Shown one piece after another: positions 6,701 through 64,000 of a stretch of 64,000 nucleotides of DNA. A program made the position numbers and the translations under genes. This stretch comes from Lunularia cruciata (Eukaryota; Streptophyta; Marchantiopsida; Lunulariales; Lunulariaceae): positions 67,956,944 through 68,020,943 of the forward strand of contig OX419755.1 of NCBI GenBank assembly GCA_948567375.1, given 5' to 3'. Below the pieces are notes generated by a model. That model made no database searches. It saw only the letters and a list, made by a program, of their open reading frames with translations, and was not told where the DNA came from. How positions within the stretch are numbered: position 1 is the first letter of the stretch; the number at the start of each line of letters is the position of its first letter.

Positions 6701-6900
6701 GTACTGTGACAATACATCAAGTATAGCACTCAACAAAAATCATGTACATACCCAAGGACTAAGCACATTGAGATTTGCAAGAAGATTTGCAGAGGAGAAA
6801 GAAAAAGAGAATGTTGTGAAATTAGTTTACTATCCTACACAAGAAATGACAACAGATGTGTTTACAAAAGTATTACTTAAAAATAAACACATAAAATATA
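3721..6900 (+). pseudogene. Copia pol remnant (protease, integrase, RT, RNase H)
   Basis: The protease motif reads WFLDSRATSHI at about 3742-3775: the catalytic D-S-G has become D-S-R, a single G-to-A change. Integrase follows, with a GAG-pre-integrase region (4130-4250), first Asp in HSD near 4322, second in RIDGG near 4512 and Glu in NGVAERLNRT near 4615. RT begins near 5500 (KWVFKVN, then KGFNQK) and carries YVDDLLLLG at about 5970-5996. RNase H spans about 6450-6870. Integrase through RNase H keep one frame, interrupted only by stops, for example at 4530, 5034, 5763 and 6573. Most stops replace expected Gln or Trp. Confidence 0.85.
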
Positions 6901-7147
6901 TAGTAAAAATAGAAATAATCATAAACTTTCATTAAATGAAAATGTTAATTTAATTAATCTCTAAATTGTTTAAAGATTTTTTATTTTTAAAATTTTATAA
7001 AAACCTTCTAGAAACCTGTTAAATATTTTTTATTTAAAATAAAAAAATACAATCCTAATTTAAATTAATATAATTCTCATCAGAAGATAATCAAAATATA
7101 CAACATCATAAAATACAAAAATAAACCCTATGATGCAACCTGGGTAA

Positions 7148-7378
7148 ATACCCTATATTATACTTCCCTGTCAGCCATTAATGTTCTCAATAATTGGTGG
7201 TCCTCGTTTCTTGTGTTCTATTGCCCTTAATTTGAGGACCTCGTCCCTTGTGCTCCCACTTTGCCCCACTTCGTCGCCCAACTTTGCCGTCCTTCGTTAA
7301 CTTGCCCTTCACATTTGTCCTTCAGCCCTTCTTCCTCACATCACCCGGTACATAAATTACCTCTCCCTCTCTCTCTCT
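7148..7378. repeat. Right arm of the inverted repeat flanking the copia element
   Basis: Reverse-complement partner of 1975-2190. It ends in a short (CT)n run at about 7360-7380, mirrored by the GA-rich start of the left arm near 1977. Confidence 0.65.
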
Positions 7379-7384
7379 CTATTT

Positions 7385-7790
7385 GCTGTGACATTGAGAA
7401 ATGAGGACAGAAGCCTTTCAAAGAACGGGGAAACCAAAACTCATTGAATTCAAATCAGATGCATGATATGTAATGTAACTGAAAATTATGCAAGATTGTG
7501 ATACAAAAAATGAGCAAAATATTGCTGCGATATTGTATATCACAGAATGCGCTATGATCGCATGAGTCCTGCAACACTAAACAACTAAACAACTGACGGA
7601 AGCAGAAAGGCGGTCAAAGTAAGCCTCCACGAAAGCATGTCCGACTTCATCGGTGCCTAATGCAGTGCTTAAAGTAGCTGGGCGAATCCCAGTAGCCCTC
7701 GTAACGAATTTCTGTTCAAAAGCTGATGAGTGCTTCGCGTAGAGGATACTTTGTTTAACTCGCAGTATCTGAACATGCATCATCAGTGGT
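7385..7790 (-). repeat. Dispersed repeats R1 and R2, minus-oriented copy
   Basis: 7390-7490 is R1 and resembles 925-1016 in the same orientation, including the 'GATGCATGATATG' block. 7540-7790 is R2 and resembles the minus-strand sequence at 1384-1585. No functional gene is visible. 7791-8229 contains nothing I can identify apart from probable 3' sequence of the DPH5 gene. Confidence 0.55.
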
Positions 7791-8229
7791 TCCGAACTTC
7801 TGATTCGAAGCTTTTAGGCAAGCATAGCACAATCTCATGACTTCTGTTTGTTGCAACCATAAAATTTCAAGGGAGTCGTGGGTAAGTAGAAATGAGGAGT
7901 ACATCAACCTCGACCAGAGATAAGTATTTCATGGTTGGAGAATGGTTTCGAACTTCTGAGACTGCAAAGGTTGCGTGCAACAACTGCCTAAATGCACATT
8001 CAGACAATCGATACGTTCCTAATCGTTAGTTATACCAAGAGGCTCACCAACTGCTCGCATGAAAATAATCGTAAAGTGACGAGTTGACAAAGTTAGCAGA
8101 CAAAATGAACTGAAAATGGCTCGAGATACCACTTAAACCCGTTTGCTAATCATCACGGACGGCTAAATAAATAATACAGCTCAATTGTGCGACTGCATTA
8201 CACGAGTACCTATCGTGACAAGATATACT

Positions 8230-37100: not shown

Positions 37101-39598
37101 AAGTACACCTCAAACGATGCAGAAGCAGAACAGAAGATCTTTGTTAAGGAGAAGATATAACCTATTCCCAAATGTGAGAACGAAGGCCCGTGGCAGAGTA
37201 ATGTCTCTGAACGCTCTAAACATGTCACTACAGTTTCAGACAAGACCACTAAAATGACGAAACAAGAGGTCCTTACTTTGTGGGCTCTGGCCCAACTGCT
37301 TCACAGAGCTCGTACAGTTGATTGGCTACCATGTATCTTACCCTCCATGACTTGTCCTGATCATTGGAAATATTTAGTTAGTAACGACAAGGTCCAGCAC
37401 CTTTGACAAAGAAATCTGCTAAAACTGACGAACAGTAGGGCTGCAATGAAACACTCGATGCTACAGTACAAAGCCGACAGTAACTCATAGATTGAGTAAG
37501 ATAAGGTTAAGGGATAACGACCCCATCGTCTAGTGGCCTAGGACACCTCTCTTTCAAGGAGGCGAACACAACATTTAATCAGATTTTGAGCAAGAGTACG
37601 AGCTGCAAGGAACTCGCTAGCCTAGAAACTGGGTTGTCATACGGCAAAGTACAGTACGACAGTACTAATAACCATGAGGTAACAACCATCCAAGAATAAT
37701 AGTTAGACATGCGACATACCTGTGAAAAGGAGACAATCACTGGCAAAATGTTTGTGATACAGTCAGCAGGCTCAAGTAGCTTTCCTAGAGCGGCACATCC
37801 TTCAACTGATAGTAATCTCACAGAATCTTGATCTGCCAAAACGCACTCGAGTCAGCAAAGTGAACCAAGCTGAGACCATTAGAAAAGAAAAGCTTGAAAA
37901 GTTGGAAATCCGTACAGAAAGCTAACGTATAGAGCCACACCGTCTTGAGTAAGATCCCTGAAGAGAGTCATGATGTCCGTTTTCAAATAACTTGATTCCA
38001 CGGTTGCTGCAAACTTTCCCAGGTTCAAGCCAGCGGATCTCCTGACCATGGGCATATCATCATGACACAGCTGATTGTAGACTGATCTCAACTCAGCACG
38101 AAGAAGATCCGGGGCACTCGGATAAGCAATGTGGAAGAGCCCACAGGCGGAAACACGGGCGGTGAACCACTCGCCAGCACCCAGTCTCTGCGAAATGCAG
38201 AATAACTTAAGAGGAGTTTTGTGTATTTTTAAACGGACAACTTGAATTCTTTTAAATCATGTTGCAACCTGTGGTGAGTGAAGTGTGATTATGCATAAGC
38301 CAGGTACATGTAGACTATCCCATAAATGACGATTAAGCCTTGTACATTCACCTAAAGGAATCCGCATCCAGCCTTAAATATTCTCCTCGGTATCAGCGTC
38401 ACCAAAACAACAGGTTACAATTTTGTATCCATCTTAATGCCAGTGCCCCTGATATGTCCACATAGTAACAGGATTCTTGGCCTGGAATGTATTTACTTCA
38501 TAATCCTTTTACTGGTCTAATTTCACAATGAAACCTTGATACCCAGAAAAATTCGGATCCGATGAAAATCGGGAGCCACCACAAGCAGAACCTCACAAGG
38601 CCCTGCGAGACCATCTAGTAGAAGAAGAGGGAGGAGAACGAATTCTTGAAGGTCGGGAAGGCCTCCCAACCCTTGCAGAATTTTGTTGAATATTCCACTC
38701 GCATTAAGGGATAGAGATAAAATTTTCAGACAATCCCATAAGACCATTGTCACCCTTTCTACTCCGTGCCCGAACGTGATCCGTATCAACCTCAGGATAC
38801 GTACATTGCGCACACCCACGATGTCTCTATCTCAAGATGAGTGCCCCTCGCCCGTTGAGCTCGAGCTCTACAGAATGACTAGGGTTCATCTGAATTTCTC
38901 CCAAAGACCCAAGAAAATAATGCTAATGCTCACGAGGCACAACGGCAGTTGCTGAAGACGGTGAAAAATTGGAATGAAGTTTAAAGCATGTACGGACCAA
39001 TACAGACCAACCAGGGGACACGATTAACATAAATTTAATAAACGATGGAGTTGGAAGTAAAAAGTTGATTGCTTGAACCCGAAATCGAGGTGGTACGACC
39101 ATTTGATCGCCATCCGACTCTCGAAGTACGGTTGGCGCATTAACAGACTTCACTAACCAGCAGTTTAAAAATGGAGAAGCACGCAAGAAGAGCATAGTCT
39201 CTCACCTTGACCAAAGGAATAAACCAGTCGACCACATCTCGCTCCTTCATTTGAGATCCAATCTTACAAAGAGACTCCACAGCCTTGTCCCGCACGACAG
39301 TCTCCTCGACCGTGCACAGAGTTTCCAATGGCGGGAGCAGCACATGTGCATGCTCAACCCCTCCGACATGAGAAATGAACGACCCCAATTCTTCGGCCAT
39401 CGCGAGCAGAACCTCGTCATCGTCATCGTTGTTCTCACTCAGAAATGGGATAAGCTCCTTCCGCGTCCTGTCCTCTCCAAGCGCCCGCGCGATTGTCGAA
39501 AGGCGGCGGATGGAATTCAACCTCAGCTGAATATCATCGTTCTTTAGCTCGTCTATCAATATTGCAATCGGATACAGTGGCTCATCCACCATGGCCAT
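34125..39598 (-). CDS. PP2AA: PP2A 65-kDa scaffolding subunit A (HEAT-repeat protein), 12 exons
   Basis: Structural A subunit of protein phosphatase 2A; it holds the catalytic C and regulatory B subunits through about 15 HEAT repeats. Minus-strand exons: 39598-39206, 38187-37941, 37832-37720, 37356-37277, 36914-36773, 36485-36405, 36190-36086, 35764-35582, 35351-35259, 34895-34756, 34579-34513 and 34241-34125. All introns are GT-AG and the phases fit, giving 586 aa against 587-588 in flowering plants. Signatures include [20 protein letters not shown] at the start, [40 protein letters not shown] and [18 protein letters not shown]. The start codon is fixed by the conserved MAMVDEP. No lesion is seen. 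It is very conserved, so expression is probably housekeeping. Confidence 0.96.
37519..37564 (+). tRNA. Truncated plastid-type tRNA-Glu (UUC) fragment
   Basis: The segment begins GACCCCATCGTCTAGTGGCC, then has a D-arm and an anticodon arm with stem CCTCT/GGAGG and loop CTTTCAA, whose anticodon is TTC. This matches the 5' half of bacterial/plastid trnE-UUC, not the nuclear type. The T-arm and 3' acceptor strand are absent: after 37564 the sequence departs. It sits in the PP2A-A intron 37357-37719 on the opposite strand. It is a fragment, probably from plastid DNA transfer or a tRNA-derived repeat, and is not a functional gene. Confidence 0.65.
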
Positions 39599-40224
39599 CG
39601 CGACCTCAAACCAAACCTCAAAATGCTCCCCGTCCTCCCTTTCCCTGTCCTACAACCTCCACCTCCTCCTCCTCCGCCCCAGTCTACAACCCAAACTTCT
39701 CTATTCCTCCTCGCCCTGGACGAGATCTGACAACCAAAACGATCGCTCTCGCTCCTTCGCTGGCGCGCTTCCACGAAGACTGACCCCCACTCGACAAATC
39801 GTTCGTCCCCAGCAGAATGTCGTTGTTTACTTTTCTCCACACCTGTGCTTCAGCCTCTCCCTCTTCCTCACCGCCAGCACCACCACGACCACCACCAACA
39901 ACAACAACAACAGCAGCAGCAGTGGCAATGCCGAGCAGCGAGACTTCAGTCGTCTTCGTAGTAAGCCGGCATCCGCTCGTCCTCGTCCTCCTCCTGTTCT
40001 GTTCCTGCTCGTCCCGACCTCGTCTGTTCCTCGTTGGAACGCTTTCGAGCTCCTTCCGCTCGCCGCTTTTTCCACCCCTAAACTCCTTAATGTATCGCCG
40101 GAAATGGACGCCGCGTTCCAAACTGGTTTTGCTCAACTAATTCCCATCCATAAGTCGAGTCTTGTGGACTGGGCCAAATTTGTCACTTTGATATGTCATA
40201 TCTATACGGTCGATGCCCATCAAC
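39599..40224 (-). promoter_or_regulatory. PP2A-A upstream/5' UTR region with trinucleotide runs
   Basis: It lies just upstream of the PP2A-A start. On the plus strand it is CT-rich, with (CCACCA), (CAA) and (CAG) runs at about 39883-39925. Several overlapping frames on both strands are low-complexity shadows. The compositional change to AT-rich DNA at about 40225 may mark the end of the gene's regulatory region. Confidence 0.5.
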
Positions 40225-43332: not shown

Positions 43333-43873
43333 TGTTGTGCGTATATACATCGCTACACAACATACATCTTTGTCAACATCATACACTATAGAAGCACAAC
43401 TCACACATAAGTCATACATAGACTCTAAAGTGCCACAATAATCAGATTGTTTACCACTCTCAACTCAACTCAAATCAGTACTTGATCTGTCACTCTATAA
43501 ACTGCCAACAACTAGGTATTGATTACAGTCAAGCCACACACACTCAAGCATAGAGAATCCAGGTGACGCTCGCCGGCCTCTATCCACCATAGCTAGGAAC
43601 TAGAAGGCTCAACATCAGAGAAGTGAGCTCTATGGAGCTGCACTTTGAAAGTATACCCCCTGAACTTGAGCTAGGTCTGAACCCTAACGGTCCTACTGAT
43701 GGCACACTTGACAATGAAAAGTGACGGTGGGCCCTACCGTGAAGTCAGTACCCCAAACACAAAATCTGACTGTCGAAAAGTAGTCTCTGAGAAACTGCTC
43801 AAATAACTCTAACTATTATCACTGCAACTCTAGTGTTCGAGCATCTAGATACGACACTACAAATGACGTGACA
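43333..43873 (-). repeat. Terminal (LTR-like) repeat of the PHD-bearing gypsy family
   Basis: It begins TGTTGTGCGTATATAC and ends GTGACA, so it has TG...CA ends. The first ~305 bp match 58568-58875, at the 3' side of the second copy. The remaining ~230 bp have no counterpart there. Immediately beyond it, 43876-43982 restarts the same terminal sequence. Confidence 0.6.
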
Positions 43874-43875
43874 GT

Positions 43876-43982
43876 TGTTGTGCGTATATACATTGCTACA
43901 CAACATACATCACTGTCAACATCATACATTATAGAAGCACAACTCACACATAAGTCATACAAAGACTCTAAAGTGCCACAAT
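43876..43982 (-). repeat. Second, partial terminal repeat in tandem
   Basis: It restarts with TGTTGTGCGTATATAC only two bases after the previous repeat and runs for about 107 bp before switching to the element's 3' untranslated sequence (CTAGCTGGCGGTTAGG...), which is shared with 58875-58910. Confidence 0.65.
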
Positions 43983-44149
43983 CGCTCCTCTAGCTGGCGG
44001 TTAGGTCCCTCTAACTCCAAATAGCCATCTACTCCAAGTATATGGTATACCCTATAATGGGTAAAGATTAGGAGGCCGAGTGCTATGGAGCCCCATCGTT
44101 AGTCGCTTGTCTGCAATCTATACCATATAAAGAATGAACTAGCTATAGG

Positions 44150-45543
44150 TCAAGTACATCTAGGACATAACCATTGTCCTTGAGGAACCACCGTGAGGGG
44201 AGGAGTCATACATGCCATATGCCATCCTCTCAAACAACCATCACACACTAACATAATAGCAACTCTACCAGAAGAGCCACATAACATACACCTCAAGCTT
44301 GCATGTACAAGTGCCAAGCTTGGGTCCATAGTACCATCAATGTTTGGAAGGTGGCATGGCGCACAATTGTGCACATGATCCTTCCAAACAACACCATCAC
44401 ATCCTTCCAACACAAGGAATCCAGATGGCAAAACCTCACGCACTCTCAAGATAGTGCGACATGTCAAAACATCAAGTGTCATTGGTACTATATGTTGTAG
44501 ATATACATAGTTGCATGGACAAAATTGATGGATTGAGGGTCTATAACCTCCTCCTTGAATGGTAGCATAGCGTAAAGTATCTCTATGCTGAGCAATTGCC
44601 AAGTTCTCAAAGGCCATCGACATCACTCTCCAAAAGATCTCTGCTCACTGAGAACATGCGCTCATCCATACATTGGGGTCATCCAAGTCCAAAACTACAG
44701 TAACATCTCAACAAATGGCTATAGGTAAATCTAGATCTCGTCCATAGAGTAGAAAGTACGGAGAGAAGGATGCTAAGGAGGCTTGCCGGCTGAATTGATA
44801 GCCCATGGCCAACCAAGGTAACTGGAGATCCCAATCTCCCAAGTGGCCTCTTTGCAAACCATACTTTGCAATCCTCTCTTCATTATCTGTACCACTCTCT
44901 TTGCTAAGCCATCTACCTTAGGGTGATCTCGAGATGTAGTACAATGATCAATCAAAGCCTTGTCACACAAGACCTAAAACTCTCCCAAGAACTATGTACC
45001 ATGATCAGTCAAAACCTCAGTTGGTGCACCAAAATGACTAAGAACTCGATCCAGGAATGAGTAAGCTGTCCCTTCACTAGACTTGTCAAGAAGTGCCACC
45101 AACTCAATCCACTTGGAGAAGTGCTCCACCATCACCAAAACATACCAATGATGTCTCATAGTCAGCGGTAAAGGTCTAGCAAAGTCCAAACTCCAACGGT
45201 AACCCAATCCCATGATAGGTAATGGGTGTAATTGTGCCGTAGGAGCATTGAATGATGCTCTAACTTGATCACAAACCACACATCTGGCAACAAACTATTG
45301 TACCTTGGTCTGCATACCGCACCACCAATAATGGCTCTGGAGTAAGCTATATGTAGGCTTTACTCCAAAATGTCCTAGCTCCTCATGAGCATGACGGACC
45401 AATTGTGGTCTCTGAGATGGAAGTGGTACTACTCGCACTCTACCATCCTCCCATACATGCAAAAGGTGTCTACCCTCCAATCTAAACCATTTGGCTCTCT
45501 GAAGAACACGGTCTCTCTCCTTGGCCCCAATTGTGCCACCCAC
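44150..45543 (-). pseudogene. Integrase and PHD finger remnant of gypsy copy 1
   Basis: The H2C2 zinc site reads HAHEELGHFG then CVVC. The integrase core has LDFARPL (first Asp), LTDHGT (second Asp) and DGLAKRVV, where the third catalytic residue, Glu in copy 2 (DGLAERVV), is Lys. Stops at 44992 and nearby replace GAG (Glu) and CAG (Gln) of copy 2. A frameshift lies between 44773 and 44626. The C-terminus holds an intact C4HC3 PHD finger (44153-44290): CMLC, CDGC, HMAC, CPRC. The integrase is inactive. Confidence 0.85.
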
Positions 45544-45729
45544 AACTAGTGCAAAGATAGTCCATCACTAAGACATCATCATGAATGTCTCACTAAACTT
45601 TACCAATATCTTCACTCTTTGGATCTGTGACCTCAATAACTTCTCTTGTATGCACTAAGAGAGATACCACCAAAGCCTCTGAAAATATACACGGAAAGGC
45701 CGATGCATGTCAACTTGGCACCATCTATT

Positions 45730-49565: not shown

Positions 49566-50580
49566 TCACCCGGACAAATCTGCCTTCTTGACCAAATGTT
49601 GCAATGCGTAATGGTCAACATAGAAGACAAACTCGTATCCTAGCATGTAGTGGCGGAATTTCTTGCAAGCATACACCATTCCGAGTGCTTCTCTTTCAAT
49701 AGTCGAATAGTTCTTTTCAGAAATTGAAATTTGTTGGCTGGCATAATACACCGGGTAGTCCTTCTTCTTCTTGTCCTCCCGACTTAAGACAACGCCGATG
49801 GCCATGGAAAAAGTGTCCATATATACATGAAAAGGGACATCCCAATTTGGGGCCCTCATAACTGGTGCTTCAACCAGTTTCTTCTTCAGGACCTGGAAAG
49901 CTTCTTCTTGATTTGCTTCCCACAAGTAGTCTTCGGATTTCTTCAGAAGCTTTGTAAGGGGTGCAGCAAGCACCACATAGTTTGACACAAAGCGTCTGTA
50001 GTATCCAACATATCCCAAGAAGGCTCTTAACTCTCGGATGTTCTTCAGGGATTCCAAAGCTATGATTACTTTAACCTTCTCAACATCAACTTCAATACCT
50101 CGGCTTGACACCCGATGCCCAGAAGAATTCCTTCCTTCATTGCAAAGAAGCATTTCTTTGGATGTAGTGACAATCCGGCAAAATGACACCTTTCAAAAGT
50201 TTGGCAAAGGTAATCCAAATGTACATCTCTTCACCCAAACACACAAAAATCATCAATGAACACTTCCACAAATTTGCATAGGAAATCCTTGAAGATTGAA
50301 TTCATCATCCGCTAGAAAGTAGTGGGAGCATTACACAACCCAAAGGGCATTTCATTGTAAGTAAAAGTGCCCCAATCGGTTGTGAATGTAGTTTTATCCT
50401 TGTCCTCTTCTCGGATGGATACTTGATTGTACCTTGAGAATCCATCGAGAAAACTATAACAAGGGTGACCAGCTACTTGGTCTAGAATTGTATTGGTAAA
50501 AGGCAAGGGATGATGATCCTTCCTTGTGACTATATTCAACTTACGGATGTCTTGGCACACTTGGATCTTCCCTATTTTCT
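49566..50580 (-). pseudogene. Gypsy B reverse transcriptase and RNase H
   Basis: RT motifs are RKLNIVTRKDHHPLPF, YSFLDGFSRYNQVSI, MPFGLCNAPTTF and the catalytic FIDDFCVFG near 50250. RNase H follows in 50189-49566, with MDTFSMAIGVVLSR (first catalytic Asp), the YSTIEREALGMVYACKKFRH block and FVFYVDHYALQHL. A stop follows PTTF at 50312, where the family usually has Q. Confidence 0.85.
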
Positions 50581-50717
50581 TCTTTGGGACAATGAAAATG
50601 GGGGAAACCCATTCATTGCTTAAGACAAGGAAGATGATTCTAGCTCCTTAGTACTTGTTGATTTCATCTTTCACAAAAGGGAGTACTTCGGGTTCAGGCG
50701 GTATTATCTCTGCCAAA

Positions 50718-52352
50718 TCAAAACTGCATCTTCAACCAAATCAATCCGGTGTTCTCCAAATTCTTGTGGTATGCCCGGCATTTGATCAATAGACCAGGCA
50801 AATACATCCTGGAATTCATAAATAGTGCAGTGTATCCTGCCAACTCCTCCGAAGTGACTGTCTTCAAAATTTTTAAAATTTTCCCTTCAGTCAAAAAAAC
50901 ATCTTGACAATTATCGGGGTTGATGACTCCTTCAACGTGGCTTACTTGGCTTAACCCGAGGCAAGTTGCCATCAAACCCCCTTCCTCCAAGTCAGGTTTA
51001 CCCAAGGTGAGGTCATATGGATCTTTGTCTTTGACATCCACCTCGTAGCATTCCAAGTAATTGACTTGGACTTCATCTTTGGATTCGTCTGAGGACAAAG
51101 ATGACGAGTCTTTGGATTCGTCCTCATCTTCTGATGAACTAGTTTCCCCAAGATGGGGAATCTTTGTCCAACTCACGGTCACCAGCTTTTGGTCTTCGGA
51201 CAAAATGTCCTTGAACCGTAACTTCTGCTGGTGCCAATCCACCACAACTTGGGCATTGTACAACCAAGGTCTTCCGATCAATAGAGGGTAACCAATCTTG
51301 GTCACTCGTCACAACACAATGTAGTTCAAATTGAAGGGCACCCCTCCAATGATCGTGGTAATGTTTGACAGCATGCCCAAGGGCCGTCTCTTGGTTTGGT
51401 CTGCAAATTTCAAGACTCGGGGTGTTGGCTGAAGCGTATGATACCCTAGTCGATTTGTAGTATCTTTAGTCATGACATTCACACCGGAACCCGAGTCAAT
51501 GGATATTGATGTGATCATGCACCCTGCAATCTCCGCATTGACCTTGGGAGATCCCAAATCTTCTTGTTCAATACAATAGATAGCGGGCAGGTTCTTCTTT
51601 GACATTGACCTTACTTTCTTAAGGGCCAAATTCAATTGCTTCTTGTACAGCTTGTTATCTTCCCACAATTGCTTAAATGTGATGTTGGCATTTGTGGCTG
51701 CCAAATTTGCTACAATATCGAATTGGGGTACTCCTCCCAATTTGACCATCCTCGCCTTTGGCTTCGGGTTTGAAGTCTCTCCATGTTCAATTTTGACTTT
51801 GGGACGTTTCAAAATGGTGACGGGACTACTAGTGGTCTTGACCCGAGGTTCCTCGGGTTGGCCCACCTCGGCTTGGATTAGACCCTTTACTTTGGATCAA
51901 ATGTCCGCCGGAAAAACTGGAGGCTTCATCTTTGTCTCCTCCTCCAAACTAATTTCCTGAGTTCTAAGTATTGCTTCCTTAAGTTCTTTCTGCAAGGCTT
52001 TAGCAAGGATCTTTTCCTCCTTGGTAGAAAGAATTGTCTTTGGGCGCAGTCTCTTTGCCTTTCTGGAAGACGACAAGATCATACTCAACTCTTTGGGGTC
52101 ACGCTTCTTCTTACTTGCACGTGTCTCAACCTTCAAAATTTCAAGGTCCAGCCGTTCTCCTTCCGAGGCCAGACGCCCTTCTTGAGGTCTCTCCTCCTCA
52201 AGTGTTATACAATTTACATTCGTATCACCCTTTGCTTGAAGCATTGCACGCTCAGTAGGGGTCTGTACATATTTTATAGGCGGCTTTGGGTTTGGTGGGT
52301 GAGGGCATTGGTTGCCCATTGTTGGGGAATTTTTTTGGCCTTGAGAGTGCAC
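50718..52352 (-). pseudogene. Gypsy B gag C-terminus and aspartic protease
   Basis: 52352-51897 is a Lys/Glu-rich gag or linker segment. The protease carries an intact DSG triad (SISIDSGSGVNVM) near 51500 and a second conserved block (GYPLLIGRPWLYNAQVVVDW) just after a stop at 51309. An acidic Ser-rich spacer (SSSEDEDESKDSSSLSSDES) lies near 51120-51060. Retropepsin processes the Gag-Pol polyprotein. Several single stops and a shift inactivate the frame. Confidence 0.75.
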
Positions 52353-52400: not shown

Positions 52401-54340
52401 AGAGTCTTTGTAGATTGACATTCTCTTCCTATTCCGGGTGTGTTGGAAATCTCAACTCTATAAGAATTCAGGGTTTTCTTTGCTTCATGGGGTCGGGTTT
52501 CTCAACGGTTTGTGTTTGTCCTTGACCTTCACAGAACTGTCTAGCTCATGCGGTTTTAGCTATGGTTTTGGACTTGACGGTTCCTAAGACAGGCTGGGAT
52601 TTTTACGAACAATAAATAGTATTCTATTTAGCTCAACCCGGCCAGACTACTGAGTCGAACCATTCATATAGATGGAATAAGAGCTCCTAAAATGGAGCTT
52701 CCTTGATGCTAGTCACAGATCAAACACACCATCATCTCAGGATTTGTCATTCATAAAATTTTCAGATGCAAGGTTCACAAGATCAACAACCCAACCAATT
52801 CTAGTTCATATAGTGTCTGCACTAAATTATGACATAACTTCACTTCAGTTGGTGCTTCTCACATACACTCTGTTTGATAAGAGTAAAGGCAACTCACCCT
52901 CCGGACCTCTTCTTCACCTCCTAGTTGCACTCCCATCAATGTTTCCTTGCAAAAACTTCTGTTATCAGCCAAATATCCTTCATGAAACGTCCTCAGCTCT
53001 CCTTTTAGAGAACTTCTATTAGCAGCTCAATGCACCACTATCTTGACCTCCATTCTCAAAGTCCTATGCCAGCCTTAACTCCGTCATTCATGTCACATGT
53101 CAACTTTTCCCTTGAAAGTTCTCCCTGCACCGACACCCATCAGCTCTTCAATTTCAAAATTTTCTCCTTGGTCATGTCATTGCCCAATGGCCTCTCAAGG
53201 CATCTCTCTCTCTCCTTCCTCTGTCTTGTTGCAAACGAGCCCAAAAAATGCTTGAAACTACACTCTCTTTCAATCTCCCTACCAATTTGTGAAGCTCCAC
53301 ACTCAGCCCTACTGCTCTTCTCTATTGCTCTTCTCAAAACTTATGCTGTCCAAGCATCAACTCCTAGGGAACATTCTTTCTACAAAACCCTTTCTCTTCC
53401 TGAACCCTCTCTCAACCCTACTAGTCCTGTGAAATTTTCTTTCTTGTCTAGCCCTCTCTCTCTTGCAAGGTCCTTCATTCTCTTGGGAAGAAACCCATTT
53501 TCTGCTTGCACTCTCAAGGCCTTTGCTTTCTTGCAAAAATTTCTCTCCTATACACTACACACCTTCAAGGCATACGCCCTGCCATTTGTTCATCTGGCCA
53601 CTGTCTTGCTCAATAGCACTTTTGAAAGTTTCTCTCTCCTTCTATCACAGACCAAGGCCAAGCAACCTTCAAAAATCTCTCTTCAATAGTTCACTCCTGT
53701 CCAGACCAAGCCCTAGAGACTCTCACTCCTTCACTCTGTACAGTCTCTCATTCACTTTGTCCACGCTCTCATTCACTCTGTCTAGTCTCTCATTCACTCT
53801 GCTCAGCCTCTCCTTTGTGAGAATTCTCCATTGTCACATTTTCAAAAGCACATCCTCTACATTCAAATTTCATTCCATGTCTACCTTTTCACAACAAACA
53901 TTCTCCATTCAAAATTTGCTCTCCTATCAACACTCTCACAATAAACATCCTTCCACATTCAAAATCATTCCTTGTCCAGTCAGAGCAACCCTAACTCGAA
54001 TTTATCCATGTCACTGGTTATTGCTCACGAAAGCCAACCTTCAAAATCTCTCCTATCCAGTGCAAGGCAAAGTCAGACTCTTGAATTCCTTCTCTTGCTC
54101 CTGCCCTAGTTCAGTCCTTCCTACAAATTTCAACTCCTTCTCTTCTCCACTATTCCAAATCAATGACTAAGCAAAACTTCAAATCTCTTGCTCCTATCAC
54201 AACCAACCCTCAATTTTCTTTCCTTCTTTCTCCTCTCCTCTGTTCTGATCAATGACCAAGCAAAACTCAAAAATATCCTGCTCTTGCAACAACCATATAC
54301 CTCCACTCTCAAAAAATTTCCCTCCTCTTGTCACAGCCCT
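52401..54340. other. CT-rich region between gypsy B and the tandem arrays, no supported gene
   Basis: The plus strand is pyrimidine-rich with Ser/Leu/Phe-rich open frames (53030-53689 and 53463-54170) that look like composition artefacts. It may hold LTR or untranslated sequence of gypsy B or C, but I could not match any pair of LTRs. Confidence 0.5.
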
Positions 54341-55460
54341 AAGGCATCCTAACTCAAAATTTCCTCTGCCCCTGCAATAGCCTCTCTCAACTCTCAAAAA
54401 ATCTTTCCCTGGCCATGTCACAGCCCTAAGGCATCTCAAAATTCTCCTCTGGCCATGCCAGAGTCCTTGTCAACTCTTGAAAATCTTTCCTTTCCTGTTA
54501 CAGCCCTAAGGCATCTCAAAATTCTCCTCTAGCCCTACAACACTCTCTCTCAACTCTTGAAAATCGTTCCGTGGCCCTGTCATAGCCCTAAGGCATCTCG
54601 AAAATCTCTTTTGGCCCTGCAAGAGTCCTTGTCAACTCTCCAAATCTTTCCTCTCATGTCACAACCCTAAGGCATCTCAAAAATTCCCTCTGGCCCTGCA
54701 AGAGCCCTTGTCAACTCTCAAAAATCTTTCCTCTCTTGTCACAACCCTAAGGCATCTTGAAATTCTCCTTTGGCCCAGCAACACTCTCTCTCAACTCCCA
54801 AAAATCTTTCCTTGGCCCTATCACAGCCCTGAGGCATCTCAAAAGTCTCCTTTGGCCATGCAAGAGTCTTTGTCAATTCTCAAATACCTTTCTCTCCTAT
54901 CACAACCCTAAGGCATTTTGAAAATCTCCTCTGGCACTGCAACACCCTCTCTCAACTCTCAAAAATCTTTCCCTGGCCCTGTCATAGCCCTAAGGCATCT
55001 CAAAAATTCCCTCTGGCCCTGCAAGAGTCTTTGTCAATTCTCCAAAACCTCTCTCTTGTCACAGCCCTAAGGCATCTCAAAAATCCCCTCTGGCCCTACA
55101 AGAGTCTTTGTCAATTCTCAAATACCTTTCTCTCCTATCACAGCCCTTAGGCATTTCAAAAATCTCCTCTGGCCTTGCAACACCCTCTCTCAACTCTCAA
55201 AAATATTTCCCTGGCCTTGTCACAACCCTAAGGCATCTCAAAAATCCCCTCTGGCCTTGCAAGAGTCTTTGTCATTTCTAGAATACCTTTCTCTCCTGTC
55301 ACAGCCCTAAGGCATTTCAAAAATCTCCTCTGGCCTTGCAACACCCTCTCTCAACTCTTAAAAATCTTTCCCTGGCCTTGTCACAACCCTAAGGCATCTT
55401 GAAAATCCCCTTTGGCCCTGCAAGAGTCTTTGTCAATTCTTGAATACCTTCCTCTCTTGT
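54341..55460. repeat. Tandem array, ~80-bp unit, about 14 copies
   Basis: The anchor CCCTAAGGCATCTC recurs at spacings of 87, 80, 82, 79, 80, 82, 79, 82, 77, 79, 82, 79 and 82 bp. Two unit types tend to alternate: one with 'CTCTCTCAACTCTCAAAAATC', the other with 'GCAAGAGTCTTTGTCAA'. The array therefore has a ~161-bp higher-order period. It is satellite-like and non-coding. Confidence 0.88.
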
Positions 55461-55466
55461 CACAAC

Positions 55467-55930
55467 CCTATTCCTTCTCCAAGCAGACCTGTCTCCCCCC
55501 CGAAACTTCCCTTTCTCCTTTAGCCTTTTCTCTCGAAGCATAAACCTCCTTGCTGTTCATGCAAAAGCCTAAGGGATCCTCTCAAAATATCCATGATCAG
55601 CCCTATTCCTTCTCCAAGCAGACCTGTCTTCCCCCCGAGACTTCCCTTTTTCCATCAGCCTGTTCTCTTGAAGCATAAACCTCCCTGCTGTTCCTGCATG
55701 AGCCTAAGGCATCCTCTCAAAATATCCCTGTTCAGCCCTATTCCTTCTTGAAGCAGACCTGTCTTCCCCCAAAACTTTCCTTTCTCCTTCAGCCTTTTCT
55801 CTTGAAGCATAAACCTCCCTGCTGTTCCTGCACAAGCCTAAGGCATCCTCTCAAAATATCCTTGTCCAGCCCTGTTCCTTCTCCAAGCAGGCTTGTCTCC
55901 CCCCAAAACTTCTTTTGCTACTGCAACTAA
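55467..55930. repeat. Second tandem array, ~135-bp unit, about 3.3 copies
   Basis: The anchor TTCCTTCTCCAAGCAGACCT (or close variants) recurs at about 55471, 55605, 55741 and 55875. It shares the phrase 'CCTAAGG(C)ATCCTCTCAAAATAT' with the neighbouring 80-bp array, suggesting common ancestry. Confidence 0.85.
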
Positions 55931-56161: not shown

Positions 56162-58565
56162 CTACATGTAGATTAATCTCCCGATGACATCCATCCCACC
56201 AATCTTGTGCAGCCACCGGTCTGCACCAGCAAGTCCGGAGTGATCAATATCAGCTTTCTTCAGTGGCATCTTCCAAATCACCTCCAAAGCTGAAGTCACA
56301 ATCTCTTTCCTCCTTGGTTCCCGATTGCCTCTTGAAAAGTTTAACCCTTTTCCCCGCGTAAGGCAGACAATGTGTAGCGCCATCTAGCTCCCGCACACTA
56401 TAGGTGGCATTCTCGTGAACTTTGGTAACAAAAAATGGACCATGCCAACAGCGGGCAAACTTCTTGAGGGTCAAATGATGTATGTCTAGGCTGTTATCAA
56501 AAACCAGCACCCAATCCCCTTCATTGATAGGCACTAGTCGCAACCGGTGAGTCTTGTCAAAGTAACTTTGTTCCTCAGCCGTGCTTCCTTCACCTTCTTG
56601 CGTGCCACTTGTAATTTCTACGGTGTTAGGTTGAAGTGCTTGATTCTACGCATGATCAATTCCTCTGTAGACACATTATCCTCCCACTGAACAATTCTCC
56701 AACTAACAATGTCCTCTTCCATAGGCATAGTAGGTAAGTGCCCTGATACTAACTCAATAGGTGGTATCCCAATTACCGAGCTGCAAGTTAACCTATCAGC
56801 CATGAGTGCTAAGGGCAGCAAATCAGGCCATCTGTATGTCTCACCTTGGCAAGCCTTCACCAAAGCATTCACTATTGGCGGATGACCTCATTCACTCTTA
56901 CCGTTGGCTTTCGGATTGTAGGAAGTAGTCAGGTTCAGTTTGATGTTGAACTTCGCAAAGAAGTCAGATGCTTCCCTTGCATCCAACTCTCCTTGATCTG
57001 CCCTCATCCGGTAGAAACATCCGTGCCTGGCAATGATATCCTCTGAGACAAACCAACACACCTGCTGGGTATGTGTAGATGACAACGCTCTTCCTTCCAC
57101 ATAATTAGATAGATCTTCCCTAGCTAGTACTAGATATTTAGCTCCTCGGACTCCTAAAGGCATATGAACCAAGTCCAAAACCCACTAAAAATGGAGATTT
57201 AGCGGATAAGTAGGTTTCAAACCATCTCTGTGCCTTACCTTGGAGTAGATCTGACAAATCTCATAGGTTTCCACATACCGTCATACCTTTGTATAAATAC
57301 CTGGCCACCAATACAAACCTCGGATGTGCTCGTATGTACCCTGAACCCCATGATGTCCGACAACATCTGCATCATGCAACTTCCATAGCACTCTCTCCTT
57401 CGTCTCCTCATCTCCCAACACTCTCAGTGGAACTCTAGAGCTGCTCTTGGGCCTTTGCCAAAGATACCCGTCCTTCAACAAGAATTTTCCGGATCTCCTT
57501 CTAATCTTCTCAAACTCTTCCCTGGTCCATTTGGAGTTCTTCTCTTGAGAACTAAGATACTTTCCAACAACTAGAAGATCATCCTTGTACAGTTCTTCTC
57601 TAAAGGGTAAGTTCAAGTCCAGCTCATACACATCCACCATATAGTCATTTTCAGCTCCTTCATAACATGCTCTAGACAACAGATCAGCTACTAGATTGTC
57701 CTTCCTAGCTATGTACCTTAGCTCTGGATTAAACATCCAAATGAATGCTATCCAATGCAACATGGCAATGTCTGGAGTGTCACAATTGGCAACTATTCCA
57801 AGCAACGGCAAGCAATTTGTCTCTAGAATGACATAGGTCCCTATTAGGCAATTTCTATCCTGTCTTAGCGCTATCTTGGCACCCCACAATTCCTATTTGA
57901 CCTGAGGGTACCTTTGTTGCCATTTTGTGAAGATCCTTGCTCCAAACCTTGCTACAAATCTGTTGCCGTTCTCGTCATCTTGGCCCACAGCCCAACCAAA
58001 AGCATAAGGACTTGAGTCAACCATAACTATAATCGGTCGTCCACAGCGGTAGTCAAGCGAGTGGAGCACAGGCGGGTTCTGTAATGCTTTCTTTAGTTTT
58101 GCCATAGCAACCAAATGTTCTGGTCTCTAGACAAACCTGATCCTTTTCCTCAAAAGCTGGTAGAGCGGCTCTACAACATGACCAAAGTGCGGAATCGAGA
58201 TATGATAGAAAATACATGCCCCTAAGAAACCTCTTCTTGGTTCTATCCCGGAACCCAATCAATCTACTGCACTGGGAATGCATTACGAGTATTGCATTCT
58301 GTGTTTGCATGGATTGACTTGCCACATGCGGTGCACCATACATTAGATCTACCAAATGTTGGGGCCTTCCTTTTGTCCTTAGCCCCAATCATCTAGATCT
58401 TGATCCAAAAACTCCTTGATGAGGGCATCCAGCTTAGAATCCGCCTTATGTACACTATTTGTTGGGGGAGTCACTGGTTTCTTACCCCATGTCTTTGTAC
58501 TTGTCTTGGCTTTGATTCCTCTTTGGATTCCAAAGAAGAGCTTGAAGACGTGGAGGATTCCTCCT
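56162..58565 (-). mobile_element. Ty3/gypsy retrotransposon C, internally deleted
   Basis: Minus-strand remnants: gag end (58565-58379), RT thumb/RNase H (58250-57650), H2C2-like region (57400-57250), integrase (57178-56618) and GPY/F region (56543-56250). Protease and the catalytic RT palm (no DD motif) are missing between gag and thumb, so the element has a large internal deletion. Its 5' end abuts the terminal repeat of the PHD-bearing copy 2 at 58568. Confidence 0.8.
56250..58388 (-). pseudogene. Gypsy C pol remnant (RNase H, integrase, GPY/F)
   Basis: RNase H has IIVMVDSSPYAFGWAVGQ and RYIARKDNLVADLLSR. The H2C2 site is degenerate (HHGVQGTYEHIRGLYWWPGI; only one of the two cysteines remains downstream). 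Integrase contains MDLVHMPLG, MRADQGELD, TTSYNPKANGKSE and then a stop. The GPY/F-like region contains KKFARCWHGPFFVTKV. This lineage keeps NG..E in the integrase, unlike gypsy B. It is non-functional. Confidence 0.8.
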
Positions 58566-59040
58566 GTCGTGCGTATATACATCACCACACAACATACATC
58601 ACTGTCAACATCATACACTATAGAAACACAACTCACACATAAGTCATACATAGACTCTAAAGTGCCACAATAATCAGATTGCTTAACACTCTCAACTCAA
58701 CTCAACTCAGATCAGTACTTGATCTGTCACTCTATAAACTGCCAACAATTGGGCACTAATTACAGTCAAGCCACACCCACTCAAGCATAGAGAATCCAGG
58801 TGACGCTTGCCGGCCTCTGTCCACCATAGCCAGGAACTCGAAGGCTTAACATCAGAGAAGTGAGCTCTCTAGAGCTGGCGGTTAGGTCCCTCTAACTCCA
58901 GATAGCCATCTACTCTAAGTATATGGTATACCCTCTAATGGGCAAAGATCAGGAGGCTGGGTGCTGTGGAGCCCCATCGTTAGTCGACTGTTTGCAATCT
59001 ATACCATATAAAGAATGAACTAGCTATAGGTCAAGTACAT

Positions 59041-59556
59041 CTAGGACATAACCACTGTGAGGGGAGGAGTCATACATGCCATATGCCATCCTCTCGAACA
59101 ACTATCACACACTAACATACTAGCAGCTCCACCAGAAGAGCCACATAACATACACCTCAAGCCTGCACGTACAAGTGCCAAGCTTGGGTCCATAGTACCA
59201 TCAATGTTTGGAAGGTGGCATGGCGCACAATTGCGCACATGATCCTTCCAAACAACACCATCATGTCCTTCTAACACAAGGACTCCAGATGGCAAAACCT
59301 CACGCACTCTCAAGATAGTGCGGCCTGTAGAAACATCAAGTGTCATCGATGCTGTCTGCTGTAGATATACATAGTCACCTAGATGAAATCGACGGATTGA
59401 GGATGTATAACCTCCTCCTCGAATGGTAGCATAGCATAAAGTATCTCTATGCTGAGCAATTGCCAAGCTCTCAAAGGCCATCGGCATCACTCTCCAAAAG
59501 ATCTCTGCTCGTTGAGAACATGCGCTCATCCATACATCGGGGTCATCCAAGTCCAA
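59041..59556 (-). pseudogene. GPY/F-like region and truncated PHD finger of gypsy copy 2
   Basis: The segment contains HLGDYVYLQQTASMTLDVST and VREVLPSGVLVLEGHDGVVW, then CMLC, CDSC and HMAC of a PHD finger (59044-59154). A short deletion relative to copy 1 (around 59052) removes the last CxxC pair and replaces the tail, so this PHD finger cannot bind its second zinc normally. Copy 1 has the full motif. Confidence 0.85.
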
Positions 59557-59579: not shown

Positions 59580-60440
59580 TGGCTGCAGGTAAATCAGGAT
59601 CTCATCCATAGAGTAGAAAGTATGGAGAGAAGGATGCTAAGGAGGCCTGCCGGCTGAACCGATAGCCCATGGCCAACCAAGGTAATTGGAGATCCCAATC
59701 TTACAAGTGACCTCTCTACAGGCCATACTTTTGCAATCCTCTCTTCACCGTCTGAACCACTCTCTCTGCTAAGCCATCTACCTCAGGGTGATCTTGGGAG
59801 GTAGTACGATGATCAATCAAAGCCTTGTCACACAAGACCTGAAACTCCCCCAAGAACTCTGTACCCTGATCAGTCAAAACCTTAGCTAGTGCACCAAAAT
59901 GACTAAGAACTTGATCTAGGAACGAGTAAGCTGTCCCTTCACTAGACTTTTCAGGAAGTGCCACCAACTCAATCCACTTGGAGAAGTGCTCCACCATCAC
60001 CAAAACATATTGATGATGTCTCACAATCAGTGGTAAAGGTCCGGCAAAGTCCAAACTCCAACAGTAACCCAATCCCATGATAGGTAATGGGTGTAACTGT
60101 GGCGTAGGAGCATTGAATGATGCTCTAACTTGGTCACAAACCATACATCTGGCAACAAACTACTGTACCTCGGTCTGCATACCGCGCCACCAATAATGAC
60201 TATGGAGTAAGCTATATGTACACTTTACTCCAAAATGTCCTAGCTCCTCATGAGCATGACGGACCAACTATGGTCTCTGAGATGGAAGTGGTACTACTTG
60301 CACTCTACCATCCTCCCATACACGCAAAAGGTGTCTACTCTCCAATCTAAACCATCTGGCTTGTTGAAGAACACGGTCTCTCTCCTTGGCTCCAACTGTG
60401 CCACCCACAACACCAGTGCGAAGATAGTCCATCACTAAGA
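59580..60440 (-). pseudogene. Integrase of gypsy copy 2
   Basis: The core in 60144-59716 carries WSLDFAGPLPL (first Asp), VLTDQGTEFLGEF (second Asp) and VDGLAERVVQTV (Glu), an intact D,D-E triad. The N-terminal zinc region lies just upstream (plus-strand copy at 60180-60260), with a stop where copy 1 reads KVQ. Compared with copy 1 this integrase is better preserved. Confidence 0.85.
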
Positions 60441-60699
60441 CATCATCATGAATGTCTCGCTGAATTGTACCAATATCTTCACTCTTTGGATTTGTGACCT
60501 CAATAACTCCTCCTGTATGGGCTCAGAGAGATACCACCAAAGCCTCTGCAAATATACACAAAAAGGCCGATGCATGCCCACCTGGCACCATCTCCTCATC
60601 TGTCTCACCATGCCAACGTGCTCCGGTCTGATCCTACTGGCTGGGACATGGGTTTCTACTCAACCCATCTGCATCACGGTTCACCACTTCAAGTTTGTG

Positions 60700-61017
60700 A
60701 ACAACCGTGAAATCATACTCCTGTAAAATCATAGCCCATCGTGCAAGCTTCCTTGAAAGCTTGTCGGACTCCATCAACCACTTCAGTGGCTTATGATCAG
60801 TGATTAGAGTGAAGGGGTTACCAAATAGGTAACATCAGAAATGTGCTACTGCCCAAACTGCTGCCAAGCACTCTCCCTCATATGAACTATACTTCACCTC
60901 CACTGAATTGTTGGAGCGACTAGCATAGGCCACCACAAACTCCTTCTCCTCATCATCATGCTAGGTGAGCACCGCTCCAAGCCCCAACATACTCCAATCA
61001 ATGTGAACCTGAAATGG
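60700..61017 (-). pseudogene. RNase H of gypsy copy 2, degenerate
   Basis: On the minus strand the region encodes an RNase H-like block: the plus-strand text around 60715-60790 gives KWLMESDKLSRKLARWAMIL in reverse, a typical gypsy RNase H feature. Stops interrupt it, so there is no long open segment. It is the expected domain between RT thumb and integrase. Confidence 0.6.
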
Positions 61018-61900
61018 TCATCCCCTGATCGGTCTCCTCAAAATAGGAGCAAATGTCAACCTCTCCTTGAGCTCTACAAAAGCTCTCTCCTGCTCATCTC
61101 CCCAACACCACTCCTGTGTAAGCTTGGTCAGCTTCATCAAGGCCTTGGCAATGGCACTAAATCCTCTAACATAGCAGCAATAGAAGTTTGCCAACCCAAG
61201 GAATGCTTGCACTCTACTCACATCCGTAGGCCGAGGAATACGTGCAATAGCCTCCACCTTGGTATGCTGAACACCAAGTCCTCCAGGGTAGATAGTGTGA
61301 CCCAAATACTCAACCTGCTTGTGGAAGAACCTACACTTCCCAAGATGTAATTTGAGTCCATGAGATCTCAACCTCTCAAACACCTCCAACAACTGTCGCT
61401 CATGCTCCTCCATAGTAGTGCTATAAACCAAAATGTCATCAATATAGCACCGAGCAAAATCCAATCCAGCTAGGATCCTATCCATGACCCTCTAGAACTC
61501 AGCAAGAGCATTCTTTAACCCAAATGGTAAGAACCTCCACTGATATAACACATCCTTACCGTGAGGATCAATAGCCCAAAATGCTATCTTGGACTTATCC
61601 TCCTCCTTGATCGGCAACTGATGATATCCTACTCAAAGATCCAAAGTACTGAAGACCTTTGCATGCCCAATCGCATCAAAAATCTCCTTTGGTGTAGGCA
61701 TGGCATACCGATCAGCCCTGGTCTGTCGGTTGATAGGACAATAATCTCCACACATCTGCCTATTTGTATAGTTGCCATGCATATCCTTCTTGGCTGGCAT
61801 CACTGTTGCTGATGCATACTCTCCATGTGAAATCTCCACCAAACCAGCCTCAAAAAGGTCACTACTCCAGCTCTGAATCAATGTCCTCTCCATATCACTA
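61018..61900 (-). pseudogene. Reverse transcriptase of gypsy copy 2
   Basis: Motifs in order: ATVMPAKKDMHGNYTNRQMC, CGDYCPINRQTRADRYAMPT, KVFSTLDL, then after a stop at 61633 the palm motif CYIDDILVYS at about 61429-61449, and the thumb (HGLKLHLGKCRFFHKQVEYL). These are classical Ty3/gypsy features. The frame agrees with the methyltransferase upstream and the integrase downstream. Confidence 0.9.
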
Positions 61901-62429
61901 TATCAATAAGGACGTCGGAAAACTAATGTGTCGCTAGTCAGCTCAATCCATATACTAGGTCCCTTCAGAGCACCCAAATCCTTCATACTGAAGGCAAAAC
62001 AACTTGTGTGACTCCTCAAGAACTTCCAAACCCTCCATCTTTCCTCTCTAGTGGAAGACGTGCTGACTGACTGCTACAGTGGGCCCTTGGGAGCAATAGT
62101 GTCATGCTCCCAACCACTAGAGATCCCAACCTTTGTGCAAAAAACTCCCTCCAGTTTGGCTGCAAGCTCCACACGTCCTCTAGCTGCATCCCATGTGGAC
62201 CAAGGGTGTAATCCAAGTAGCCCACGCTCACATGGATGGACTCCAAGTAGACCACTCTCCCTAGTAGCTACTGGATGTGTCCCAAGAATACCATGTCCAC
62301 TCGGTCCATTGCCCCCAACATGTGCCTGAATCGTCTCAATAGGCACAGGGCTCACAAGTGTCCGAGTGGTGATACCTATCAAGTGCATCCTATGCTGCTC
62401 TGCCAAGCCAAGGCTCACAATCCAGGTCA

Positions 62430-63681
62430 AACAGTTCAGGTCCATAGCCTGACCTAACACCTGATGCCTGGATGCCTCTAACATTGTTGGAATAGTAGTA
62501 ATACCGGTGCAAAAACCCATTGCCCGCTCTCTCTCTTCAGCATTGAGCTCCACCAACTGCTGTAATTGTGAGTCCCAAACACGTCCAGGTCCTCCCTCTC
62601 AAAAAGCATGAGAGCCTAGGAAACTCATGAGTGTGGGAAATGTGGCTCTAGGCTGTCCAACTAGATTCACCACTACCATAGGTGACCTATCAGCCACTAC
62701 CACTGTCTGAGACTGATGCCTAACATCCAAGATGTCATCAACAAGGATGTGGTCAAGTCGTTGAATCCCATCATAGGCACGCTGTAGAACCTCTTTGGGT
62801 AAGAGGTTCATCCACCAAAGACGAAGACGATGAGCCCGTGATCCCACTCTGGCTGCATCTAACAATACAGCAAGTCCCATTCAAGAATGGACTTGATGTG
62901 TACTCGCCACCACTCTGGTGCAAGAATCACCCAACACAGGAACGTTCTCCAAAAGGTAAGCTAGAGAAACAGACTGATGAACCTGGAGATGTTGTAGTAT
63001 CCGTAACATCTCCCAAAACACACTAGAACAAGGATCCTGAAGATCCAAACCGCGTCTCGCACGTGTATGTCCCTAACATGGCCATCCAGAAATCACCAAG
63101 TGAATAGGCCCATGTCTCTCTAGGTCATGCACCCCCAGTAAGGAAATGTCTCCTGGTAAGGCCTTCTGGTAACCTCTGACTGCTGACATCAATAATAACT
63201 CCGGATACCGATAGGCCAAGTGTGCCACATGATGTAGAAAGACTCGCCTAGCAGTCTCATCTCTCTCTACATACAAGTACCTCTGTACTTGTATACCCGC
63301 TTGTAACACCATAGCTAGTCCGGTGCTGATCCCACCAAACAACGCCAATAGGCATATCCCCTCTACTGGATACTGCCAAGCAATGAGTGTGGTATCCAGA
63401 GGTGTCAAAGCAATCGCCTCTAGAGGCTCATCCTCACACTCATCTCCTGATGGTACGAAGGCTCCACTCCAAGCTTGCTGCACAAACTGATCTGCATGTT
63501 GTTGCAATGCCTCCTTTGAACTCCACAATGGAACATCCAAAGTGGATTGAACAATCCCACTCATACTCCAAAGCCAAGTGATCTCCTCTGGTACAGGAGT
63601 ATCCTCTACATGGGCGTTCCTCTCCAACAAGTCACCAGGCCAAGTAACTGCACCACTGAAAGCTAAAACTGATGCTGCCAT
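62430..63681 (-). pseudogene. C5-cytosine DNA methyltransferase domain (DNMT3/DRM-like) inside gypsy Pol
   Basis: The SAM-binding motif I is LFGGISTGLAMVLQAGI near 63322-63342. Motif II-like YVERDETARRVF follows. Motif IV is WPC then a TAG stop at 63073-63075, exactly where the family has PCQ or PCN; the catalytic Cys codon is intact. Motif VI is LLENVPVLGD, with ENV at 62941-62949. A SRAHRLRLWWMNLL block near 62840 resembles the 'R.R.FW.N' motif VIII of DNMT3/DRM. C-terminal blocks are ERERAMGFCTG and LGQAMDLN (about 62520-62440, motifs IX-X). No separate target-recognition domain of the large DNMT1/CMT type is seen. In life it would have methylated cytosines in DNA, perhaps the element's own copies. 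The 112 residues before motif I are unrecognised. Confidence 0.85.
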
Positions 63682-64000
63682 GGTCCCAGACTATAGTGAG
63701 CCAAGACTGCCTCTACTAAAGCATACTGGTAGGCGACATACCCGTCCCTCACCAGACTGCCAACCAGGTCTATAAGAGGTTGTCTCCTCCCAATAGTCGA
63801 TGCTGAAATCCATGGGGTATAACAGTGCTCTCCCAACTAGCACATCATATGACTCAGCTATCGTTGCAATAGCCTAAGCTCTCACCACCAAGCTATCAGT
63901 CGGATGACCAGGCTGAACCTAGACAACAAGCTCCCCATGTGTGATGTACTGTGTCAAACCACCACCTAGAGATGTCTGGATCTGAAATGGACACCTCTCC

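Follow-up and report, generated by a model that had tools for sequence, protein, structure and literature searches.

Why does a retrotransposon carry a DNA methyltransferase of its own, when DNA methylation is one of the main plant weapons against retrotransposons? The question is raised by a stretch of 64,000 nucleotides of Lunularia cruciata (contig OX419755.1, positions 67,956,944 to 68,020,943; hereafter the window, meaning the whole stretch analysed), in which a DNMT3-type cytosine-5 methyltransferase (MTase) domain lies at 62391–63390 of the minus strand (boundaries from the map of other copies) within the remnant of a Ty3/gypsy-type element. The initial annotation had placed such a domain between the protease and the reverse transcriptase (RT) of a Ty3/gypsy polyprotein, with its motifs in order and in frame with both, and both points are borne out by the shared frame and by other copies, the coding strand being the minus strand. 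The motif series LFGGISTG (I), PC (IV), LLENV (VI), RAHRLRLWWMNL (VIII), and MGFCTG with LGQAMDLN (IX–X) is read in one minus-strand frame, which is also the single frame of the protease remnant, RT, RNase H, integrase, and PHD pieces. The conserved core spans approximately 62391–63390, the remainder of 62430–63681 being spacer behind the protease. As judged from sequence comparison, the MTase is an integral, long-inherited part of a streptophyte Ty3/gypsy-type lineage, and we propose that a conserved stop codon downstream of it, UAG CAR YYA, is a leaky stop between a Gag-protease-MTase product and an RT-RNase H-integrase-PHD product.

The MTase domains of related proteins are nearest to DNMT3 catalytic domains in sequence and predicted fold. 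In the window copy, the open piece at 63076–63690 (205 residues) matches DNMT3A (E 0.003) and finds 54 proteins at 51–71% identity (best E 1.6e-66), while a Pfam scan of its four MTase pieces returned no MTase match and a single chance hit (E 0.12). Four of eight relatives scanned (P0037, P0040, P0011, and P0012) passed the 22-bit cut-off of PF00145 (DNA_methylase) at 25–32 bits. PWWP and ADD, the regulatory domains that adjoin the catalytic domain in animal DNMT3 enzymes, are absent from the Pfam matches of P0037, P0055, and P0057, so that the likeness to DNMT3 is limited to the catalytic domain. The motif order I-IV-VI-VIII-IX-X is unrearranged in both the window copy and its relatives, in contrast to the rearranged order of DRM enzymes (PMC5890265); of the DNMT3/DRM-like identity first assigned, the DNMT3 part therefore stands and the DRM part is ruled out. 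DRM2 structures align with one part of P0037 only, and neither DRM nor DNMT1 occurs among the 50 structure matches listed (PDB, Foldseek), an absence that is not proof of distance. Among 27 distinct Lunularia copies (28 loci, L006 and L009 being one copy), all six motifs are intact in 16 and motif IV in 26, the exception being the window copy, where a stop codon (63073–63075) directly follows PC. Across 49 near-full domains, the motif IV cysteine is kept in 45 and ENV in 41, while five lack [WF][PE]CQ. In nine of the 49 (P0104, P0129, P0138, P0147, P0159, P0169, P0191, P0195, and P0198), ECQ replaces PCQ, with loss of the proline before the catalytic cysteine. By its sequence and its predicted fold, the MTase is accordingly described here as DNMT3-like; its catalytic motifs are largely preserved.

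A genome search for copies, set beforehand as a test of whether family members carry the domain, found that they keep it. A 30-mer from the MTase matched 3,812 sites in the 566-Mb genome and one from the PHD finger 4,833 (up to three mismatches; reversed controls, 0 for each); the MTase probe may decay faster because it contains a CpG. The 205-residue piece yielded 150 scored matches from 10,644 first-look candidates, all 91–94% identical apart from the window's own. When every fifth PHD site among the first 100 listed was inspected, an MTase stretch of 300 bp or more lay at the expected distance in 16 of 20; three sites showed no match at that place, and in one it was taken up by a different portion of the element. 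For closer study, 20 copies were fetched, picked for long open frames and hence no fair sample of decay. Their plan is Gag-protease-MTase, a conserved stop, and RT-RNase H-integrase-PHD in the same frame. The first open reading frame (ORF1, Gag-protease-MTase) ends at oriented position 5114 in 14 of the 20 (5111 in one copy) and is uninterrupted in six, at 1428–1448 codons; ORF2 (RT-RNase H-integrase-PHD; 5118–8228, up to 1037 codons) is uninterrupted in two, and the PHD finger lies at about 8085–8228 in L009–L028. Since the MTase has no ends of its own and copies keep it, it is part of the element; the alternative that it is a separate insertion is ruled out, the termini with their 4-bp target duplications lying outside Gag and PHD. 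The initial placement inside Pol is correct as to an in-frame polyprotein, but in this genome Pol is not unbroken: the MTase belongs to the Gag-protease ORF, upstream of the conserved stop.

This stop is TAG, followed by CAG and then CCA or TCA, in all 27 distinct copies, including that of the window, where it occupies 62074–62076 (minus strand, UAG CAG UCA). With CAG YCA fixed and the stop codon alone left free, 1,001 genome sites matched; the first 100 listed comprised 95 TAG, three TAA, and two sense codons. The stop of the element has the form UAG CARYYA, known from plant viruses as the signal for type I readthrough (PMC5382211). Among 53 proteins matched to the end of the MTase domain, 25 terminate 11–164 residues past the MTase without an RT and 28 include the RT; both layouts thus exist in the clade, although annotation and contig ends may blur the picture. 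The longest contigs of P0072 (Gag-protease-MTase) and P0100 (RT to PHD) are each 8955 bases, which suggests two ORFs of one element.

Relatives outside Lunularia point to shared inheritance. The 42 long proteins related through the MTase include sequences from Marchantia, Calypogeia, Sphagnum fallax, and metagenomes, and Marchantia polymorpha has annotated ORFs of the family (P0057 and P0059). The RT search (best 120 of 397) includes Klebsormidium nitens P0121, P0158 (with PHD), and P0164, which are 45–49% identical to the Marchantia element over the RT-RNase H region, as well as Chara and Closterium proteins; two scans of viral contigs found no relatives. The family profile detects an MTase in 25 of 116 new proteins from this search. 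Of the 91 others with an RT, 58 are uninformative on absence of the MTase because their chains begin within 150 residues of the RT, and 18, including Chara P0145, flowering-plant and animal Gypsy proteins, and three PHD-bearing proteins (P0168, P0182, and P0205), show no MTase in the more than 400 residues that precede the RT. For 19 proteins with both domains, RT and MTase trees share 12 of 16 splits, as compared to three at most in 1000 shuffles. Both trees also unite in a single clade the seven proteins whose MTase sits between RNase H and integrase, namely P0092, P0190, P0191, P0195, P0198, P0199, and P0208. The element and its MTase have therefore descended together, the MTase having shifted its position once. 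Protein identity between L015 and Calypogeia is 74% for MTase, 80% for RT, 73% for RNase H, and 87% for part of the integrase, and that between L015 and Marchantia P0057 is 74% for MTase, 60% for Gag, and 56% for protease; against the more distant P0088, P0092, and P0104, the values are 43–44% (MTase), 47–61% (RT), and 51–60% (integrase). Constraint on the MTase is thus similar to that on the RT at short range and lower at long range.

The termini of the element were examined in six copies for which the 5' side was also fetched (L010, L013, L017, L022, L023, and L028, with L029–L034). The order RT-RNase H-integrase with a DDE integrase is that of Ty3/gypsy elements (Metaviridae), but instead of the two direct long terminal repeats of that group, all six copies have the layout A1-body-B1-A2-B2, in which A is approximately 450 bp and B 107 bp. 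A1 at the 5' end and A2, between B1 and B2 near the 3' end, are 96.5–99.6% identical. The element runs from TG to CA (A1 starts TGTC and B2 finishes GACA), and a 4-bp target duplication, read by eye, is exact in five of the six copies, the remaining one having a single mismatch. Every one of these copies has CGACA-GC-TGTC at the B1-A2 junction, and a G-rich tract lies immediately upstream of B1. Such a layout might arise if a molecule carrying two end-to-end B-A repeats were cut open at the palindrome where B meets A. The element combines split direct repeats with an integrase of the DDE type and target duplications of 4 bp.

The copy in the window is a decayed, dead remnant. All of its parts lie on the minus strand, beginning with the C-terminal part and linker of a retropepsin-like protease (ESYDVLVGRALLYPMDF...; 63691–64000), which continues beyond the window and is broken by a premature stop at 63691–63693. 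In P0005, P0013, P0020, and P0023, the same stretch leads directly into the beginning of the MTase, and the catalytic part of the protease is placed beyond 64000 by the map of other copies. The MTase is interrupted by the stop in motif IV and by two more at 62881–62883 and 62599–62601; these and the stop at 63691 are decay, since the positions are open in better-kept copies. Decay is ruled out as the origin of the stop at 62074 because TAG occurs there in every distinct copy. Downstream follow a broken RT at 61018–61902 (RVT_1, E 2e-14 in 61018–61491; no Pfam match in 61636–61902), an RNase H part at 60637–60834 (RT_RNaseH, E 1.1e-11), a DDE integrase core at 59719–60159 (rve, E 3.9e-12), and a PHD finger of the integrase C terminus at 59056–59154, cut by a stop (PF00628, E 1.4e-7). 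The element end is the 107-bp repeat B2 at 58565–58671, adjoined by a remnant of A2 at 58672–58876; comparison with the copies fetched with both ends shows that B1 and the other portion of A2 are absent here. The 3' part of a second copy, 91–92% identical where aligned, lies at 43333–45726 (minus strand) and comprises B2 (43333–43439), A2 (approximately 43440–43875), B1 (43876–43982), a complete PHD finger (approximately 44156–44290), and part of the integrase.

What the enzyme does for the element is best explained, at about even chances in our estimate, by a particle-borne MTase that methylates the element's cDNA, in an inherited Ty3/gypsy lineage whose PHD finger favours silent chromatin. 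Because the MTase is placed before the putative leaky stop, it would be a Gag-level particle protein: most ribosomes would halt at the UAG, so that MTase would be made at the level of Gag and enter the particle in quantity, whereas the enzymes needed at low dose (RT-RNase H-integrase-PHD) would be supplied by readthrough. DNMT3-type enzymes act de novo on unmethylated double-stranded DNA and need no template methylation. Since the first such DNA that the enzyme met would be the element's own cDNA, this is its probable substrate, methylated before or at integration, and a new copy would arrive marked like the surrounding silent DNA. The element's PHD finger most resembles those of CHD4, PHF12, KDM5, KMT2D, and PHF21A, several of which read unmodified H3K4; acting in the same way, it would favour silent chromatin as a target. 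At the C terminus of a Ty3-type integrase, the finger is possibly a target-site reader in place of a chromodomain.

Several observations weigh against this explanation or are indifferent to it. In none of the 20 fetched copies are ORF1 and ORF2 both open, so that current activity is not apparent from them. For the selection analysis and for the comparisons of C-to-T changes and flanks, L020 and L026, whose 3' parts align poorly, were left out. Counted as distinct changes, the ratio of nonsynonymous to synonymous differences (N/S) in the MTase is 0.51–0.63 of expectation, a weak departure (p 0.044–0.17, depending on the reference copy), and no other segment departs from expectation (p at least 0.41; integrase, 1.34–1.46). 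Pairwise comparison of copies gives 0.60–0.62 for the MTase and 1.5 for the integrase; the count of distinct changes is preferred because pair counts are not independent. The C-to-T differences are concentrated at CG and CHG sites, the footprint of methylated DNA, which is explicable by host methylation alone. Relative to background, the 3' flanks are depleted in CpG (p 0.024), and this may reflect survival rather than targeting. The MTase follows the RT in seven of 28 proteins with both domains, from which it follows that dosage at the level of Gag is dispensable in some lineages, and three PHD-bearing relatives (P0168, P0182, and P0205) have no detected MTase. Finally, the MTase domain of KnitGypsy-Dnmt3, of those assayed the nearest to the present one, produced no methylation in yeast, where DNMT3B failed as well, and its authors considered the experiment inconclusive (PMC5890265).

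A broader reading, possible but doubtful, joins these elements into one history, in which a single ancient capture of a DNMT3 domain would have founded a streptophyte-wide Ty3-type lineage with a PHD integrase and split repeats. A writer (MTase) and an H3K4me0-type reader (PHD) would sit on the two halves of a leaky polyprotein; the particle would pre-methylate the cDNA, the integrase would steer it to silent chromatin, and the host's mark would serve as camouflage, with the B1-A2 junction (palindrome CA-GC-TG) as the integrase substrate in circular or two-repeat DNA.

Alternatively, and in our view rather unlikely, the MTase may work in trans: jointly with the integrase-PHD, it would act on host chromatin or at the target site and thereby restore silencing where the element has inserted; the pair of reader and writer would then function like DNMT3 and ADD, split over one polyprotein. 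Such a role fits with insertion into CpG-poor DNA and with the pairing of MTase and a finger close to H3K4me0 readers on the same element. The initial annotation had called this pairing unusual, but for the clade it is usual: of 18 MTase-bearing proteins of sufficient length, a regular expression finds the PHD in 13, and two that it missed (P0129 and P0138) carry PF00628, making at least 15 (33 of 64 proteins without MTase also match the expression). However, a leaky UAG would give MTase and PHD in unequal amounts, the polyprotein's protease may cut the two apart, and neither the regular expression nor Pfam shows a PHD in P0088, P0159, and P0169. A noncatalytic role of the MTase, for instance in holding DNA or RNA inside the particle, appears improbable. 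The inactive KnitGypsy domain and the near-full domains that have lost [WF][PE]CQ or changed PCQ to ECQ are in keeping with it, but the motif IV cysteine and ENV persist in most domains despite identity down to 43%. Self-restraint, whereby the MTase methylates and silences the element's own copies, limits copy number, and spares the host, was suggested in the initial annotation, beside concealment of the element from host recognition, and is also put forward in the discussion of PMC5890265; we consider it very unlikely, as thousands of sites weigh against strong self-limitation and the close likeness of A1 and A2 in six copies indicates a wide spread that is not long past. That the MTase stems from a piece of a host gene picked up by the element, or from a nested insertion, and is in frame by chance, is next to impossible, for apart from the decay of the window copy nothing favours it, while the distance to the conserved stop is constant in the 27 distinct copies, the MTase occurs in 53 proteins from other sources, and RT and MTase trees agree.

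The remainder of the window contains an ion-channel exon at 29609–30736 (plus strand; Ion_trans, E 1.2e-41), resembling a voltage-gated calcium-channel type of gene, a type reportedly lost in most land plants, and a HEAT-repeat exon at 39143–39649 (minus strand), presumably PP2A A-subunit-like. A minisatellite with a unit of approximately 80 bp and at least 13 copies (54264–55470) is followed by three copies of a unit of approximately 135 bp (55463–55912). Other retrotransposon remnants, Ty1/copia-like and other Ty3-like, lie at 4533–6575 (plus strand), 49566–51896 (minus strand), and 56250–58126 (minus strand); no MTase was noticed in these, and no search was aimed at one there.

An element with a DNMT3-type enzyme in its own polyprotein bears on the way in which mobile DNA coexists with a silencing mark that is normally turned against it. 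The lineage carries the MTase as far as the RT tree was followed (Closterium, liverworts, and Sphagnum), and it is present at thousands of sites in one genome. Because Marchantia polymorpha, a laboratory plant, has annotated ORFs of the family, the question of why a transposon should methylate DNA can be put to the test beyond dinoflagellates and Klebsormidium. Bryophyte DNMT3 gene counts may also include ORFs of the element.

The precedent to which the initial annotation appealed is sound, in that DNMT3 domains are described from KnitGypsy-Dnmt3 of a charophyte and SymbioDIRS-Dnmt3 of dinoflagellates (PMC5890265). Among the matches listed from open-licence literature, there was no land-plant Gypsy element with an MTase, no PHD finger or leaky stop in MTase-bearing elements, and no split repeats in Gypsy elements beyond PMC5890265. 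SymbioDIRS-Dnmt3 likewise has a DNMT3-type domain in a retrotransposon polyprotein, but it uses a tyrosine recombinase rather than a DDE integrase and is described as independent (PMC5890265). Ginger1-9_HM shares a PHD at the C terminus of a Gypsy-integrase-like transposase; however, it is a Hydra DNA transposon with a Ulp1 domain and neither RT nor MTase (PMC2836005). The closest counterpart, KnitGypsy-Dnmt3 of Klebsormidium nitens (de Mendoza et al. 2018, PMC5890265), has an unrearranged DNMT3-type MTase in a Gypsy polyprotein, no introns, and a DIRS-like repeat layout with Gypsy domain content. Its report describes one charophyte and a separate acquisition, whereas the present element occurs in land plants and at thousands of sites; its main text never uses the term PHD, and the available text describes no leaky stop (PMC5890265). 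The Lunularia element shares the DIRS-like repeats, found in all six copies with both ends, and differs in that its MTase belongs to the Gag-protease ORF and precedes a conserved stop. The comparison covers layout and RT relatives, the KnitGypsy MTase not being recognisable among the matches. Mere convergence is rejected in view of the K. nitens RT proteins among the matches listed, one of them with PHD, although this is unproved for the MTase. DIRS/PAT elements, a group marked by a tyrosine recombinase, have the same A1-body-B1-A2-B2 split direct repeats; the Lunularia element differs from them by its rve integrase and by target duplications of 4 bp. Ty3/gypsy chromoviruses have an integrase with a C-terminal chromatin reader, the chromodomain, in place of which the Lunularia element has a PHD finger. 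Orchid Ty3/Gypsy elements reportedly carry an m6A demethylase domain, again pairing a plant Gypsy element with an epigenetic-type enzyme, one that is unrelated and, by the title of the report (PMC9289625), recently acquired. Retrotransposons with a DNMT3 domain have thus been known as a kind since 2018; the present analysis adds land-plant members that have reached high copy numbers, whose integrase bears a PHD finger and whose conserved stop codon has the sequence context of readthrough.
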